Virus record (IMG/VR): IMGVR_UViG_3300037010_002181
Location: 1-20,107 of that record
Direction: 5' to 3' (one strand)
DNA: 20,107 nt
Source of the DNA: a virus
Shown: positions 13,048 through 20,107 of the stretch, piece by piece
Layout: the number at the start of each line of letters is the position of its first letter
Position numbering within the stretch: the stretch's first letter is position 1
The notes under the pieces: generated by a model
The model's input: the letters and a program-made list of their open reading frames with translations, nothing else
Told to the model about the DNA's origin: nothing
Databases searched by the model: none
Made by a program: the position numbers and the translations under genes

Positions 13048-13461
13048 CTACTTCCTTTCAATGCTTACATCGAGGCCAGTTGTGACAGCAGTGGCGAGTG
13101 CCCCCCGCTTGTCAGTGGGCAGGGCCTCCCAATACTGCTCCACGGTATCATCTACTCGTCTGTCAAGTTCAGCTTCTTCTTTCTGCTTGCCAGCGCGAAC
13201 TTCCTCTGTTTCTCCAGTTTCGAGAATCCGACATCCGTGCCTTTTAAGGTTTTCGCTGTGGGCCGTCTTGCCTTCGACCCACTTGCCGGTGATGGGGCAA
13301 GAATACCCTGCGTAGTCGACCGAAACAGCCGGGGCACAGAGTCTACGTTCCATCGAGGTTTGGCATTTTTCACAGAATTCCTCACGATTTAAGGAGGCTA
13401 GGGGTTTGAAGATGTCTCGACGAGACTGACAGGCCGGGCACTGATAGAGGTAAGTAGGCAT
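13048..13461 (-). CDS. Small zinc-ribbon protein between portal and scaffold genes
   Basis: A 137-residue protein whose N-terminus, MPTYLYQCPACQSRRDIFKP, holds Cys8 and Cys11, followed by Cys30 and Cys33 (FCEKCQ). This is a CxxC-18-CxxC zinc ribbon like that of FmdB/regulatory small proteins. After residue 40 it has a Cys52-containing segment (GYSCPITGKWVEGKTAHSEN) and ends in an acidic helical region (EEAELDRRVDDTVEQYWEAL). It lies within the head-gene cluster: its start is two bases after the portal stop and its stop is two bases before the scaffold ATG. Similar small zinc proteins occur at this place in related podoviruses; their function is unknown. Confidence 0.82.
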   Translation of the reverse strand: MPTYLYQCPACQSRRDIFKPLASLNREEFCEKCQTSMERRLCAPAVSVDYAGYSCPITGKWVEGKTAHSENLKRHGCRILETGETEEVRAGKQKEEAELDRRVDDTVEQYWEALPTDKRGALATAVTTGLDVSIERK

Positions 13462-13463
13462 GG

Positions 13464-15836
13464 CTATTTTGTGGAAGGTTTCGCGGCGGCGATAGTACGT
13501 GCGTGGGCATCTTGCTTTAGCTGCAGGCTGTGCTCTTTTGCGCTGATCTTCTGGTCGGTCTCCGCGATGCGCATTTGTTGGGTGAAATCCGCTTCCTTCA
13601 TAGCCATTTGCTTGGCGAAGTCGATTTCCTTCAACATCTGGGCCTTTTGCAGGTCGAGTTCCTTCGCGGCAAACATCTGTTCCTGGGCGGCAGACTGTTT
13701 CTGCAACTCAAGGTCATGGGCTTGCTGTGTCAGCAAGGCTTTCTGCTGATCAACCTGTTGCTGCAGCTGCTGCTGGGAAACCGCCTGCTTCTGCTGGACA
13801 GCCTGCTCTGTCGCGACCTTCTGCTTTTCGAGGTCAGTAGCTTGCGCTTCCAGTTGTTTCTGCTGCGCCTCGAGTTCCTTCTGCTTCTTCGCCAGGTCAT
13901 CGGGATTTGCTTGCTGCGGGGGTTTCATTCCCTTGATAGAGTCCTCCATCTCCACTCCCATTCGGTATCGGCGCACGACAGTGAGCAGCATGCCCTGCGC
14001 GATTTCGAACGGCATAACTCCGCTCTGCACCATCGGGCCGATACCGGTCATGAATTGACTGATCGCGGTCAGCACCTCTGCCATGTCTTTCTTGTCTTCA
14101 GTCGCCTCGGCATCCACTGTCGAGTTTGTCTCGATGTCGATGCGGTAGCTACGCTGAATATCATCACGAAGCATGCCCAGGATGTCATCCCAGCTAGGGC
14201 TCTGCGCGGCCTGCAGCAGTTGGGGAGGTGGTTGCTGCGGCGGAGGTGGTTGTTGCCCAGTCATCTGTGCCTGTTGTGCAACTTGCTGTTGTTGCTGCTG
14301 CATCATTTGCAATTGCTGCCCGGCCTGTGCCTTTTCCGAACCTGTCGGGTAGGGCAAACCGGTCATCGCTTTGAGGGTCTCGGGAGCCAGTTTGCTCACA
14401 GCAATTTCCGCCATGATCCGCAGGCAGTCTCTGCAGTACCGCATGACCTCCTTTTGGGCCTTTTTCAGCCGCAGGGTACCCCATTGATTCTTCAATTCCT
14501 GCGCACCGAGGGTTTCGCTCGCCTGCGAAGCCCCCCGCATGATGTCGGCAATACCGGTAATCTCGTAGATCGTCTTCTTCACTTGCTCGCGCTGCGTGTA
14601 GAGCTGCTGCAGGACGGAAACGAGCTTCTCAATCGGCATGAGCCAGACGGCTTTTTCTAGGGCGTTGCCTTGCGCCAGCAGTGCTGCGACATTCTCCGCA
14701 GGGACCAGCGTGTTGTCATCAGCCTGTAGGACCTTTTCAATCCCCTCCACAGTGCTATCATACATACCCCGCACCTTGAGTGCCGAGATGATCTTGTTGA
14801 TGCGGACGGTGACGCGGTTGAGTTCCTTTGCCTGCTCTTCATAGAAGGTGTACAGGGAGACTGGGGTCAGTGTACTAACCTTCGCCACAAAGGCCAGCGG
14901 CCGCGGCCAGGGGAAGAATCCAGACAAGCCCAGTGGGTCGTCAACTTCCTTAATCGGTTCCGATTTCCATTGTGGGCTGATGAACAGCACCTTCTTCTCA
15001 TCCTTATCCCAGATCTCATACACCTGGGCCACTTTCAGGTTCTTCGTATCATCCTTTGGGTCGTCGTTTTCTCCTTCGTCAGAGGTCGCGGAAGTGCCGG
15101 CCATTTCGATGACAGGGATTTTTGCTCCGACTTCCCCGAAGTTCTTTTCCAGCTCCTCGCGAGTCATAAAGTGTTCAATCGCCCCCCACGGGATATCCTT
15201 CCACTTCTTGGCGTTGCCATGCAGGAAGCGATCCCAAGGTATTTCCTCCCCGCAGACGGTCTCATATTTGACGGATTCCTGCACGGGATGCTCTAGCGAG
15301 GCATCGCCTTCGACTTCATCTTCGGCTTCATCTTCCTCGGCGGGGGATTCTACGGCTTCCGCCTGCGCTTCCAGTTGCTGGGTTTCAATACTCGCATCGT
15401 ACTTGAAGCGGGTCAGCCCACGGCCGGGGACAAGTGCCTCCAGCGTAGCTGATTTCATCAAGTCGTCGAAGGGGGTATACTGCACACTACCATCATCCAC
15501 GAGGTACTCAAGTGTACGCTGCGCTGCAACGCTGGCCAACTTCCCGAGTGGGTCCTCATCCTTGAAGCGGCGTTGTACTACTGGCCGGGGTACGCTGTTG
15601 TACAGTGCCGGCAGCATCGTTTCTGTGTTGGAGTACAGAATGTTGAATTGGTAGTCTCGCTTCTTTTCGCCCTCAAACAGCTCGACAATGCGATGGCCTT
15701 CCCTGCGGAAATCCTTTTCCAGCTTCCTCGCATCTGCGACCTCCTTCAGCCACTTGCCCACCACCTTCGACAGCGGTGCTGCATCGGGAGTGTTAACAGC
15801 GCCTTTCAGGCCTAAATCTGTCGGATTGATGTCCAT
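13464..15836 (-). CDS. Portal protein with long C-terminal coiled coil
   Basis: A 790-residue protein of the P22-like portal type, the dodecameric channel through which DNA enters and leaves the head. The N-terminal domain has KRDYQFNILYSNTETMLPAL and SVPRPVVQRRFKDEDP. An acidic insert spans about 151-185. The stem/core region (about 300-480) includes RPLAFVAKVSTLTPVSLYTF, IYEITGIADIMRGASQASET and QWGTLRLKKAQKEVMRYCRD. Then come a poly-Gln/Pro linker at 508-540, a wing-like return (PSWDDILGMLRDDIQRSYRI), and a Gln/Lys/Glu coiled coil at about 645-780, comparable to the helical barrel of P22 gp1. The start overlaps the terminase stop (TAATG). Confidence 0.92.
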   Translation of the reverse strand: MDINPTDLGLKGAVNTPDAAPLSKVVGKWLKEVADARKLEKDFRREGHRIVELFEGEKKRDYQFNILYSNTETMLPALYNSVPRPVVQRRFKDEDPLGKLASVAAQRTLEYLVDDGSVQYTPFDDLMKSATLEALVPGRGLTRFKYDASIETQQLEAQAEAVESPAEEDEAEDEVEGDASLEHPVQESVKYETVCGEEIPWDRFLHGNAKKWKDIPWGAIEHFMTREELEKNFGEVGAKIPVIEMAGTSATSDEGENDDPKDDTKNLKVAQVYEIWDKDEKKVLFISPQWKSEPIKEVDDPLGLSGFFPWPRPLAFVAKVSTLTPVSLYTFYEEQAKELNRVTVRINKIISALKVRGMYDSTVEGIEKVLQADDNTLVPAENVAALLAQGNALEKAVWLMPIEKLVSVLQQLYTQREQVKKTIYEITGIADIMRGASQASETLGAQELKNQWGTLRLKKAQKEVMRYCRDCLRIMAEIAVSKLAPETLKAMTGLPYPTGSEKAQAGQQLQMMQQQQQQVAQQAQMTGQQPPPPQQPPPQLLQAAQSPSWDDILGMLRDDIQRSYRIDIETNSTVDAEATEDKKDMAEVLTAISQFMTGIGPMVQSGVMPFEIAQGMLLTVVRRYRMGVEMEDSIKGMKPPQQANPDDLAKKQKELEAQQKQLEAQATDLEKQKVATEQAVQQKQAVSQQQLQQQVDQQKALLTQQAHDLELQKQSAAQEQMFAAKELDLQKAQMLKEIDFAKQMAMKEADFTQQMRIAETDQKISAKEHSLQLKQDAHARTIAAAKPSTK

Positions 15837-17314
15837 TAGTCAGTTTCCTTAGCAATGCGGCGTTCCCGCAGTTTGTCAACAAGTTGGTCAATTGTGTGGT
15901 CTTGTGGAAGCTTGGGCAAGCCGGTGCCTGCGGGTTTGGGGGAAGCAGGTATCCAGGGTCGAGACATCACGGCGTAGCGAGTTTCGTCGTAGGCGTGATC
16001 TTCAGCCTCGGTATCGACATCCTCCGGGTCCTTGTCATCGTGCTGCAGGGTTGGCAGGGTCCGAATGGTGTCCTCACAGCAGTCGAGGAAGTACAGCATA
16101 GGCCGCCCATTGTGCCCAACAAGTCGCTGGCGAAGCATTTCAGCACCCACTTTACGCTTGTTGTCGGCGCGTCGCCAAGTGCAGCGATGCTGAGCCATGA
16201 CCTCTCCAATGCTGGGGCCGCCATCACGGATGAAGATAGCGGGATCGGCTACGCCATAGCGAATGCGTTCCTTCGCTTCCCGGAGAATGATCCCATCGGC
16301 GACGAGATCAGCTGTCATTTTGAGACCCTTATTCGGCCCCTGACTGCCATACCATTCCCGGTACTTCACCAGTGCTCCCTTTGGGATCAACTTTCCCTGG
16401 AAATCCAGGTCATTTGCCATAAGCGCGTACCAGCCCACGGAGAATGGGCGGTAGCTCCCCCAGTCAAACGAGCGGAACTTCAGTACATCGGGCTGGATAA
16501 AGGGCATGAAGTCATGGGAACTGAGTACGTGCGTGCCCTCATCCCATTCGTCAAAGAATGCCCCATCTACTATGTCCCAGTTCCCTTCCAGCCATGCCTG
16601 CACCAAAGCCGCGGAGCCGGACTGCTTCAGCCGGAGGATATACGTTGGATCATTCCGCATGAGCAGCAGATTGTCCGAGATTTTACTCGGAATAAACACC
16701 CGATCCAGCTTGACCGTCTGCTTGACTCCGTCAATCTCAATCTCCGTGTCGTCGGTGATGAGCTGGAAGCCTCTGGGGTTCGGATCTATGAAGCGTCGCT
16801 TTACCCAATTATGACCGGCACCACCAGGGTTACCAGTAAGACGCATACCACAAGGGACGCCAGAGCCAGATCGCAGAGTAGCTCGGAGTTTGTTGATAGG
16901 GTCCGGCGAAGGGAAGTTAGTAACTTCCTCCACGTAGACACGGGTATAATTGTGGCCTTGGTATTCTTCCGCATCGCTGTCACGCTCCAGGTAGGCAAAC
17001 TTCAGTCGAGCTCCGTTGGGCATGGTCCAGGTCTTTTGCTGCTCATTGTACTTCGCCCCGAGCTTGGGGAAGAGCTGCTTTGTGCGGGCGATCACTTCCA
17101 TTAACTGGACGAGTTTTCGGCGGAAGAAAATACCAATTGCGGCCTCGCCATATAGTGAGCTGTGCTGCAGCCAATCTCCGATGGAACTTTCTGTTTTCCC
17201 ACCACCTCGAGCGCCTCCGTAGAATACCTCGAAAACGGGGCATTCCAGAAGGAAGGTTTGTGGGCCTGGCTGGGGTTGCCAGATTATTGTCGGAGAGAGG
17301 GCTTCAGCCAGCAC
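15836..17314 (-). CDS. terL: Terminase large subunit (ATPase and nuclease)
   Basis: A 492-residue DNA-packaging motor. The ATPase has a Walker A at residues 34-41 (GARGGGKT), a Walker B at 125-130 (RVYVEE, with the acidic pair E129/E130) and the coupling motif LTGNPGG at 159-165. The nuclease half has candidate metal ligands D284 (SFDWGS), D357 (GVADPAIF) and D439 (EDHAYDETRY), in the usual RNase H-like order. Length is normal for the family. The start is GTG at 17314; a stop five codons further upstream in frame rules out longer versions. It overlaps the 87-residue gene by 11 bases and has only a weak Shine-Dalgarno, so translation is probably coupled. It works with the small terminase and docks on the portal. 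Confidence 0.95.
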   Translation of the reverse strand: MLAEALSPTIIWQPQPGPQTFLLECPVFEVFYGGARGGGKTESSIGDWLQHSSLYGEAAIGIFFRRKLVQLMEVIARTKQLFPKLGAKYNEQQKTWTMPNGARLKFAYLERDSDAEEYQGHNYTRVYVEEVTNFPSPDPINKLRATLRSGSGVPCGMRLTGNPGGAGHNWVKRRFIDPNPRGFQLITDDTEIEIDGVKQTVKLDRVFIPSKISDNLLLMRNDPTYILRLKQSGSAALVQAWLEGNWDIVDGAFFDEWDEGTHVLSSHDFMPFIQPDVLKFRSFDWGSYRPFSVGWYALMANDLDFQGKLIPKGALVKYREWYGSQGPNKGLKMTADLVADGIILREAKERIRYGVADPAIFIRDGGPSIGEVMAQHRCTWRRADNKRKVGAEMLRQRLVGHNGRPMLYFLDCCEDTIRTLPTLQHDDKDPEDVDTEAEDHAYDETRYAVMSRPWIPASPKPAGTGLPKLPQDHTIDQLVDKLRERRIAKETD

Positions 17315-18164: not shown

Positions 18165-18193
18165 AGTGTAATAGGCTTTTCCGGCACTGTCAA
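18165..18193 (-). promoter_or_regulatory. Sigma-70-type late promoter before the small terminase
   Basis: On the minus strand TTGACA (18193-18188, perfect -35) is followed by a 17-base spacer and TACACT (18170-18165, four of six bases of the -10 consensus). The predicted start is near 18158, giving an 18-base leader with GGAG before the ATG at 18139. It would drive the terminase-to-tail transcription unit with host RNA polymerase. Confidence 0.75.
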
Positions 18194-18228: not shown

Positions 18229-18519
18229 CCCGGATATTTGAGCCACCCATTTCTTTCAGTAATGGTAGCCGGGTCACCCCCATACCCATGCACCAAATTG
18301 AACAAGCCCGAGTAAAATCCGTAGGATGGGACCTGAGAAAGGTGAAATAGGGCGTGGCGCGTGTAGCGGCTATGCGCGTAAACACCCGGCTCAGCCGACC
18401 CCCACCTGCCGACAAGCCGCCCCCAGTCTGTGGTATGGAAACGACACCCCCTACCCCCCTCGAGGGGATCAGTGGCAGAAAAACAATATAACAAAAATTG
18501 TCGGGGGCTGGGCACGGAA

Positions 18520-18537
18520 TGTCACATGATTGTGACA
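18520..18537. promoter_or_regulatory. Dyad TGTCACA-N4-TGTGACA, candidate enhancer site
   Basis: A perfect inverted repeat with 7-base arms and a TGAT spacer lies in an AT-rich island. Related ATTGT/ACAAT boxes occur at 18483, 18497, 18529, 18535 and 18548. The centre lies about 85 bases upstream of the predicted sigma-54 start, in the usual range for an enhancer-binding protein. It could also be a repressor operator. Confidence 0.5.
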
Positions 18538-18586: not shown

Positions 18587-18604
18587 TTGGCACGGGGCTT
18601 GCAT
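18587..18604 (+). promoter_or_regulatory. Sigma-54 (RpoN) promoter
   Basis: TTGGCACGGGGCTTGCAT matches the -24/-12 consensus YTGGCACG-N4-TTGCW at every defined base, with the essential GG (18589-18590) and GC (18601-18602) separated by 10 bases. The five bases before TGGCACG (CAGGT) also fit the extended consensus. The predicted start is near 18614, about 40 bases before the ATG at 18654. No comparable plus-strand sigma-70 promoter was found nearby. Confidence 0.8.
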
Positions 18605-18615
18605 GTATGACTAGG

Positions 18616-18653: not shown

Positions 18654-18857
18654 ATGATGGACGTAGTAACACTCGGTGATGTGAACGAATGCGATAGCGT
18701 GATTGTGGTGGCTATGGATGACAAGGGCCGTACGTGGTCCACCGCCGAATGGGAAATCGCATTCCCTGGGCAAAGGGCTTCCTGTGCGATTGCGGAGGCT
18801 ATTGCCTACTTCGGCAGCATGGAATTGACGGTCACGGTCAAATTTCTGAGGGCCTGA
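18654..18857 (+). CDS. Small protein of unknown function, first gene of plus-strand operon
   Basis: A 67-residue protein; ATG at 18654 or, less likely, 18657, with an AGGG six bases before the first. It is an acidic-to-neutral, compact alpha/beta-looking sequence: VVTLGDVNECDSVIVVAMDD, then GRTWSTAEWEIAFPGQ, then a helix CAIAEAIAYFGS and a strand ELTVTVKFLRA. Homologues are not recognised. The gene is downstream of the sigma-54 promoter and upstream of two strong hairpins. The strand change from the late genes suggests a function outside virion assembly, such as an early or regulatory small protein, but that is inference. Confidence 0.65.
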   Translation: MMDVVTLGDVNECDSVIVVAMDDKGRTWSTAEWEIAFPGQRASCAIAEAIAYFGSMELTVTVKFLRA

Positions 18858-18945: not shown

Positions 18946-19455
18946 ATGAACGCTACTACACGTACACCAGCCATTGATGCTACAACAGACACGAATGCCC
19001 TAACGGTAACGCTGGCATTTAGTAACGGGGAAACGCTAACCATCGATGCAACGCAATTGACAACGGATATTCAGGCGCAGGCCACGTTGCACGGATTGAA
19101 ACAAAAACTGGTGGATGCCGCAGCGATTAGTCGCAACCCGGATACCGGACGATCCGCTACCATCAATGATAAATATAACGCGGTGCGCGAAGTCTATGAT
19201 CGTTTGTTGTTGGGGCAGTGGAATAAAAACCGCGATGCCGGGGCCGTGCGCGGCGGGCTGCTGTTCCGAGCCCTGTGTATGTTGTACCCCGATAAAACCG
19301 GCGATGCCATTAAGGCGTTTCTAGAGAAAAAGACGGCAGCTGAAAAGACCGCATTGCGCAATACGCCGAAGATTGCCGACATTATCCTGACCTTAAAGGA
19401 TGACGAAGCCGGGGATGATGTTGACACGGATGCGATGTTGGACGAATTGAACTAA
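18946..19455 (+). CDS. Conserved phage protein of unknown function
   Basis: A 169-residue protein with GAGGA seven bases before the ATG. It has a beta-rich N-terminal part (ALTVTLAFSNGETLTIDATQ), a central helical block (LHGLKQKLVDAAAISRNPDT, then GRSATINDKYNAVREVYDRL and LLGQWNKNRD), and VRGGLLFRALCMLYPDKTGD near residues 101-120. It ends in an acidic tail (DDEAGDDVDTDAMLDELN). The core with HGLKQKL.DAAAISR...G.SAT...K and LYPDKT resembles a small family found in many phages close to the terminase or early genes, always uncharacterised as far as I know. The sequence is acidic at the C-terminus, and no catalytic site is visible. Confidence 0.85.
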   Translation: MNATTRTPAIDATTDTNALTVTLAFSNGETLTIDATQLTTDIQAQATLHGLKQKLVDAAAISRNPDTGRSATINDKYNAVREVYDRLLLGQWNKNRDAGAVRGGLLFRALCMLYPDKTGDAIKAFLEKKTAAEKTALRNTPKIADIILTLKDDEAGDDVDTDAMLDELN

Positions 19456-19465
19456 GGAGAATATC

Positions 19466-19654
19466 ATGCTTTTTGTATATGCCAAAACCGACCAAAGCGG
19501 TCTACATTTTGTGTGCATCGGGGCTAGCGAACTGGACGAAGACCCAATTATTGTGTGCCGTACCAACGATACCGCCGAGGCTAATAGCGTTGTGGTTTTT
19601 TGTGTTAACAAGTTAAACTCCGCCGGGGTTACGGTAGCCCATTCAGGTCTGTAA
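19466..19654 (+). CDS. Small protein of unknown function, last gene of plus-strand operon
   Basis: A 62-residue protein starting at 19466 with the ideal Shine-Dalgarno AAGGAG six bases upstream, overlapping the end of the preceding gene's stop codon. It looks like a compact beta-strand protein (MLFVYAKTDQSGLHFVCIGA, then PIIVCRTNDTAEANSVVVFC). Two cysteines lie in the strands. Homologues are not recognised. It is translated with the upstream 169-residue protein, and an intrinsic terminator follows it by 20 bases, which marks it as the operon's last gene. Confidence 0.7.
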   Translation: MLFVYAKTDQSGLHFVCIGASELDEDPIIVCRTNDTAEANSVVVFCVNKLNSAGVTVAHSGL

Positions 19655-19673: not shown

Positions 19674-19698
19674 GCCCGGCATAGTCCGGGCTTTTTTT
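19674..19698 (+). terminator. Rho-independent terminator of the plus-strand operon
   Basis: GCCCGG pairs with CCGGGC across the loop CATAGT and is followed at once by seven T residues (19692-19698). It starts 20 bases after the stop codon of the 62-residue gene. Confidence 0.93.
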
Positions 19699-20079: not shown

Positions 20080-20107
20080 TTGACAACACCACCATACGGG
20101 GTATTAT
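20080..20107 (+). promoter_or_regulatory. Strong sigma-70-type rightward promoter at the window edge
   Basis: TTGACA (20080-20085, perfect) is followed by a 16-base spacer and TATTAT (20102-20107, five of six). The octamer GGTATTAT occurs both at 20073-20080 and 20100-20107. It would fire to the right, outside the window, and probably serves an early or middle operon. Confidence 0.65.

Follow-up and report, generated by a model that had tools for sequence, protein, structure and literature searches.

The window analysed here, meaning the whole stretch of DNA under study, is an IMG/VR virus fragment of 20,107 bases in which the structural genes, including TerL (15836-17314), the portal and the major head protein, run leftward and a short operon runs rightward across a divergent control region (Table 1). 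A preliminary description of this sequence had proposed an operon of three genes closed by an intrinsic terminator and both are present, with a hairpin and T run also found after gene 2 in many relatives. The good ribosome binding sites proposed alongside are true of gene 3 (AAGGAG), but the Shine-Dalgarno-like bases are fair before gene 2 (GAGG) and weak before gene 1 (AGGG). Gene 1 has no Pfam or PHROG match and a search for its relatives gave none that was informative. For gene 2 an alignment of 25 members was built and 80 loci were found in IMG/VR, its structure model is confident (pLDDT 83) and a fold search with this model gave no PDB match. An Rfam scan of the window gave no match.

Table 1. 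Features of the control region and the rightward operon, with positions in the window
Feature	Position	Strand	Description
sigma-70-type promoter	18165..18193	-	TTGACA-N17-TACACT, for the leftward structural genes
palindrome TGTCACA-TGAT-TGTGACA	18520..18537		candidate activator (enhancer) site, centred ~85 bp before the predicted start
sigma-54 -24/-12 promoter element	18587..18604	+	full consensus match; relatives conserve the motif in their control regions
gene 1	18654..18857	+	67 aa ORF, first of the operon, no family
gene 2	18946..19455	+	169 aa, conserved phage protein, HGLKQKLVDAAAISRN motif
gene 3	19466..19654	+	62 aa ORF, good ribosome binding site
intrinsic terminator	19674..19691	+	stem GCCCGG/CCGGGC and T run, closes the operon

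The usual view is that phages have their genes transcribed by sigma-70 polymerase or by factors of their own. In keeping with this, these phages have a sigma-70-type promoter leftward before the structural genes, with a similar TTGACA-N17 promoter in the same place in L005, L007, L010, L016, L020, L022, L060 and L132. The rightward operon of the window differs from this ordinary arrangement in having a sigma-54 site, and no sigma-70-type site was found on the + strand between 18460 and 18654. A C-rich element, CCCCC..CCTGCCGA..CCGCCCCC, lies at about 18392-18428, with counterparts in roughly half of the relatives, and may belong to a packaging site or be a leftward control element.

The sigma-54 element reads TTGGCACGGGGCTTGCAT, with GG at 18589-18590 and GC at 18601-18602, and its position predicts a transcript start near 18613. 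The preliminary description had claimed a full match to the RpoN -24/-12 consensus with these invariant pairs at 10-base spacing and a fit of the extended upstream bases, and neither claim needs to be altered, the spacing being exactly 10 bases and the 24-mer CAGGTTGGCACGGGGCTTGCATGT agreeing at all defined positions, with 0 mismatches, with mrNrYTGGCACG-4bp-TTGCWNNw, the consensus of 186 sigma-54 promoters (quoted in PMC2725144). The pattern expected of a sigma-54-dependent promoter, GG-N10-GC within YTGGCACGN4TTGCW, is thus present, and by chance 0.0057 matches to TGGCACGN4TTGCA and 0.0003 to the full consensus are expected per window. There is no second site with two or fewer mismatches to the core anywhere in the 20 kb window. 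The coordinates given earlier are exact, as are the location in the divergent control region and the + orientation, and the distance to the operon, put at about 50 bases, is 49 bases between the end of the element and the ATG of gene 1.

Relatives were collected through TerL (80), through a TerL profile (more) and through the 80 gene 2 loci, the sets overlapping. Where relatives have the motif it lies in the same divergent control region and its orientation is mostly shared. In the 1000-1500 bp bin 23 of the sites with GG and GC intact and two or fewer mismatches are forward and 5 are reverse, with few or none in each farther bin, and when only the best site per locus is taken the top score band is reached by 8 sequences of the 99 derived through TerL (the window included) and by 9 of the 70 gene 2 relatives, all of them forward and none reverse. 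Seeding with GGCAY alone recovers N4-TTGC and seeding with TTGCW alone recovers GGCAYGR; together these give the sigma-54 pattern, the spacer being free. In 5.6 kb of control regions 30 exact matches point forward and 1 is reversed.

About three quarters of the relatives are without a strong site, and conservation, which the preliminary description had suggested checking, is accordingly divided. In L005 (85% TerL identity) the site is kept with a changed spacer directly before the conserved gene 2, and it is found in many distant relatives, but in the closest relative, L003 (89% TerL identity), the whole promoter module is absent and the genes on both sides are conserved. The element is therefore conserved with a varying spacer and mosaic at the same time. 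In L003 about 170 bp of unrelated DNA replaces the module from the C-rich element to the start of gene 2; judging from such sequences, regulatory modules are exchanged between close phages. Presence of the site is scattered on the gene 2 tree, with 12 changes where shuffled labels give about 17.5, thus the promoter module seems to have been swapped often. The comparison did not support the idea that sigma-70 promoters near gene 2 are better in relatives that lack the sigma-54 site. In L199, L200, L212 and L236 exact sigma-54-like sites are directed away from gene 2, toward genes of the other strand.

It is apparent that the relatives fall into two architectures, the window belonging to those with a single site. 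In this class, which like the other was drawn after inspection of the loci, exact IHF sites lie just upstream in 6 of 14 loci (7 sites where 0.06 would be expected) and TGACA/TGTCA half-sites number 12 against 5.0 expected, with 1 of 400 shuffles as high. The array class has up to 5 tandem copies, reversed in some loci, with 0 IHF sites and no excess of half-sites, and in some arrays a good sigma-70 promoter lies between the array and gene 2. The control regions of L022, L123, L186, L248 and L252 carry 2-5 near-perfect sigma-54-like sites 25-55 bp apart, and several end in TTGCTACGYGYGC. Tandem arrays are unusual for sigma-54 and the array class may work differently. A further observation is that in L052 and L238 several DnaA-box-like TTATCCAC(A) sequences lie just upstream of the IHF/sigma-54 site, where the control region may also be a replication origin.

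As these classes were drawn post hoc, an independent test was made by scanning all of IMG/VR for an IHF 13-mer with a sigma-54 core, the IHF site being taken in both orientations. The scan gave 27 + 37 = 64 stretches with 49 distinct sites, against fewer than 1 expected per orientation on a rough composition estimate in which the size of the collection in bases was assumed. The gaps between IHF and sigma-54 sites are far from uniform (p 4e-12 and 1e-10 for the two orientations) and rise in steps of about 10.5 bp, being 5-7, 15-17 and 30 in one IHF orientation and 17-20, 28 and 40 in the other. The loci are those of phages, as of 20 proteins tested 17 have a match among phage protein families, in 12 cases terminase or portal; in most no relative of the window's TerL was seen, and in several a gene-2-like protein is encoded closely downstream of the site. 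TGACA/TGTCA half-sites number 43 in the 130 bp upstream of the IHF sites, where 13.0 would be expected and 0 of 300 shuffles reach as many; they lie mostly at -80 to -130, with TGACR-N5-YGTCA the commonest arrangement. The window itself has no exact IHF site, IHF being a common and not a universal feature of sigma-54-dependent promoters.

What such an enhancer serves in bacteria could be read from 398 Pseudomonadota genomes, in which TGACA-N5-TGTCA together with a sigma-54 site occurs in four places, all of them at pilin genes; a relaxed enhancer pattern adds one pilin and one other gene, so that pilins account for five of the six distinct host places. PilR is known to activate pilA with sigma-54 (PMC6058289). 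L284, L291, L292, L294 and L304 have the TGACR-N5-YGTCA palindrome as it occurs at pilin genes and, since the same enhancer with sigma-54 marks pilin genes in hosts, several phages carry a pilin-type enhancer. The phage promoters thus resemble the bacterial pilA promoter, which is controlled by sigma-54 and the PilR of the PilSR two-component system, in the -24/-12 element, in half-sites at about -80 to -130 and, for those five phages, in the palindrome itself, but they drive phage genes and not pilin, and the palindrome of the window has the different spacing TGTCA-N8-TGACA. As a control the IHF and sigma-54 pattern was taken to the same 398 genomes, where it occurs in only three places, which by protein sequence are an amtB ammonium transporter, a sensor kinase adjoining a response regulator and an argD/astC-type aminotransferase. 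Genes of these three types are of kinds with sigma-54 dependence. The phages share with these IHF-assisted promoters the arrangement of IHF 13-mer and sigma-54 site, but in the phages it precedes phage genes and the upstream enhancer varies from phage to phage, and the window differs again in having no exact IHF site.

The activator sites of sigma-54-dependent promoters are typically found at -80 to -150. The candidate activator site of the window, at -85, has perfect 7-bp arms, and 7.6% of shuffles are as good, making it only mildly unlikely by chance. It shares TGACA/TGTCA half-sites with the other phages, in which these are enriched at a similar distance, but its spacing together with a sigma-54 site has no match in the 398 host genomes, and the PilR-type TGACR-N5-YGTCA is not found in the window. 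A NifA-like TGT-N11-A(C/G)A element has been described at a PilR-controlled promoter (PMC6058289); there are none in the window, two in L005 and one in L020. The palindrome does fit TGTC-N10-GACA, the QseF/GlrR consensus (PMC8745638), and in this the window is like the glmY promoter controlled by QseF/GlrR, which combines sigma-54, IHF and this consensus. It differs from glmY in having one site only and no exact IHF site, and the spacing is not shared by the relatives of the window.

The gene for an AAA+ enhancer-binding protein that the preliminary description had suggested looking for did not appear, as the activator domain PF00158 gave no match above cut-off in the window or any virus record searched, with only two sub-threshold partial matches in the genomes of L123 and L266. 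Neither the RpoN DNA-binding domain nor the Fis-type HTH of activators (PF04552, PF02954) was found in 30 records, and a phage-encoded activator or sigma-54 was therefore rejected. With no activator gene in the phage records searched, an activator supplied by the host must be assumed. A cyanobacterial host was considered, as Pam5 and Mel-JY34 share distant genes, and was ruled out on the ground that cyanobacteria are not known to have sigma-54 or IHF. Integrated relatives in the genome collection have TerL identities of 54% or less and are mostly in Alphaproteobacteria, and no strong site was found in their control regions.

It is quite probable, going by these patterns, that the element is a working sigma-54 (RpoN) promoter that is opened by a host activator and drives the phage operon. 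Host RNA polymerase with sigma-54 would bind the element as a silent closed complex, which would be opened by a host AAA+ activator seated some 85 bp upstream, the palindrome being its probable site, and in many relatives IHF would bend the DNA between the activator site and the promoter. The operon so driven would be small and insulated, consisting of genes 1-3 up to the terminator, with a sigma-70-type promoter serving the structural-gene direction, and it would thereby depend on the regulatory state of the host. Since the operon is insulated and the opposite promoter is of the sigma-70 type, only the operon and not the whole phage would be under such control. The proposal of a sigma-54 promoter for a phage operon, as first made, is strongly supported by the comparison with relatives and other phages; that the operon is actually transcribed in this way, which activator serves the window's phage and what this means physiologically is what we infer. 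The strongest evidence that phage promoters of this kind are real sigma-54 promoters comes from the helical phasing and from the pilin result, and what links it to the window is the -24/-12 element that they share, together with the half-sites and gene 2, and not an identical enhancer. Counting against the proposal are the absent module in L003, the scattered sites, the lack of an exact IHF site in the window, a palindrome that is only mildly unlikely and the arrays.

The arrays bear most directly on the suggestion that some other protein, such as a phage regulator or a replication initiator, binds the motif, which would resemble sigma-54 sites by coincidence, with the arrays being operators or iterons. 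The 3-5 copies set 25-55 bp apart in L022, L123, L186 and L252, the reversed copies in some and the position of some arrays upstream of a good sigma-70 promoter would all suit this, but such a protein would have to account for every defined sigma-54 position and the exact GG-N10-GC spacing being recovered, for single-site loci with helically phased IHF sites and half-sites at enhancer distance, and for the same composite pattern marking sigma-54 genes in bacteria, so that we regard it as rather unlikely. Sigma-54 polymerase forms stable silent complexes, and it might bind here without initiating, as a decoy or as a roadblock modulating other transcription. Arrays would suit decoys, and widespread intragenic sigma-54 binding is reported (PMC4591121). 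Against this the site of the window is the sole promoter-like candidate before the operon, at the right orientation and distance, the orientation is conserved in relatives, and for a decoy IHF and the phasing of an enhancer would be superfluous, making binding alone an improbable explanation. The absence of the site from L003 and its scattered presence on the gene 2 tree could also be those of a chance match or of the non-functional remains of a host promoter taken up by the phage, but this is very hard to believe of a match so rarely expected that is found in the same place in L005 with a changed spacer and in many distant relatives; chance was rejected on the expected counts and the conservation.

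If the element is indeed a working sigma-54 promoter, it is probably through sigma-54, and not through the housekeeping sigma factor, that such phages read the regulatory state of the host. Sigma-54 polymerase is silent until a sensor-driven activator opens it, therefore a promoter of this kind before a conserved phage operon would tie part of the infection programme to a host signal. The tie to host nitrogen, motility or stress state made in the preliminary description would be conjectural for the window's phage. The match to the pilin (PilR) enhancer in other phages points to surface and pilus state there, and with that enhancer in several of them the state sensed would probably be that of PilSR or the pilus. 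Type IV pili are common phage receptors, and the pilin enhancer thus suggests a concrete host signal. We suggest tentatively, as a possibility that falls a little short of likely, that the sigma-54, IHF and enhancer logic of the hosts has been adopted by a large number of unrelated environmental phages, some with the pilin enhancer itself, so that the operon would be on only in cells with the right pilus or surface state, and elsewhere in response to another sigma-54 signal, giving a sensor of host state that is built from host regulators with no phage regulator. No description of such phage sigma-54 promoters was found in open-access papers, most subscription journals being outside the scope of the search.

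Some further features of these genomes may be mentioned. At the right end of the window (20080-20107, +), past the terminator of the operon, lies a strong sigma-70-like TTGACA-N16-TATTAT with 11/12 agreement, and the genes that follow probably have a sigma-70 promoter of their own. Adjoining the portal gene, positions 13048-13461 (-) encode a protein of 137 aa with a zinc-ribbon-like N-terminus (PF09723, below cut-off). In L001 (MW202489.1, 39992-40171) a short ORF is annotated as the class D beta-lactamase OXA-58, which at only about 59 codons is far too short and is probably a misannotation.
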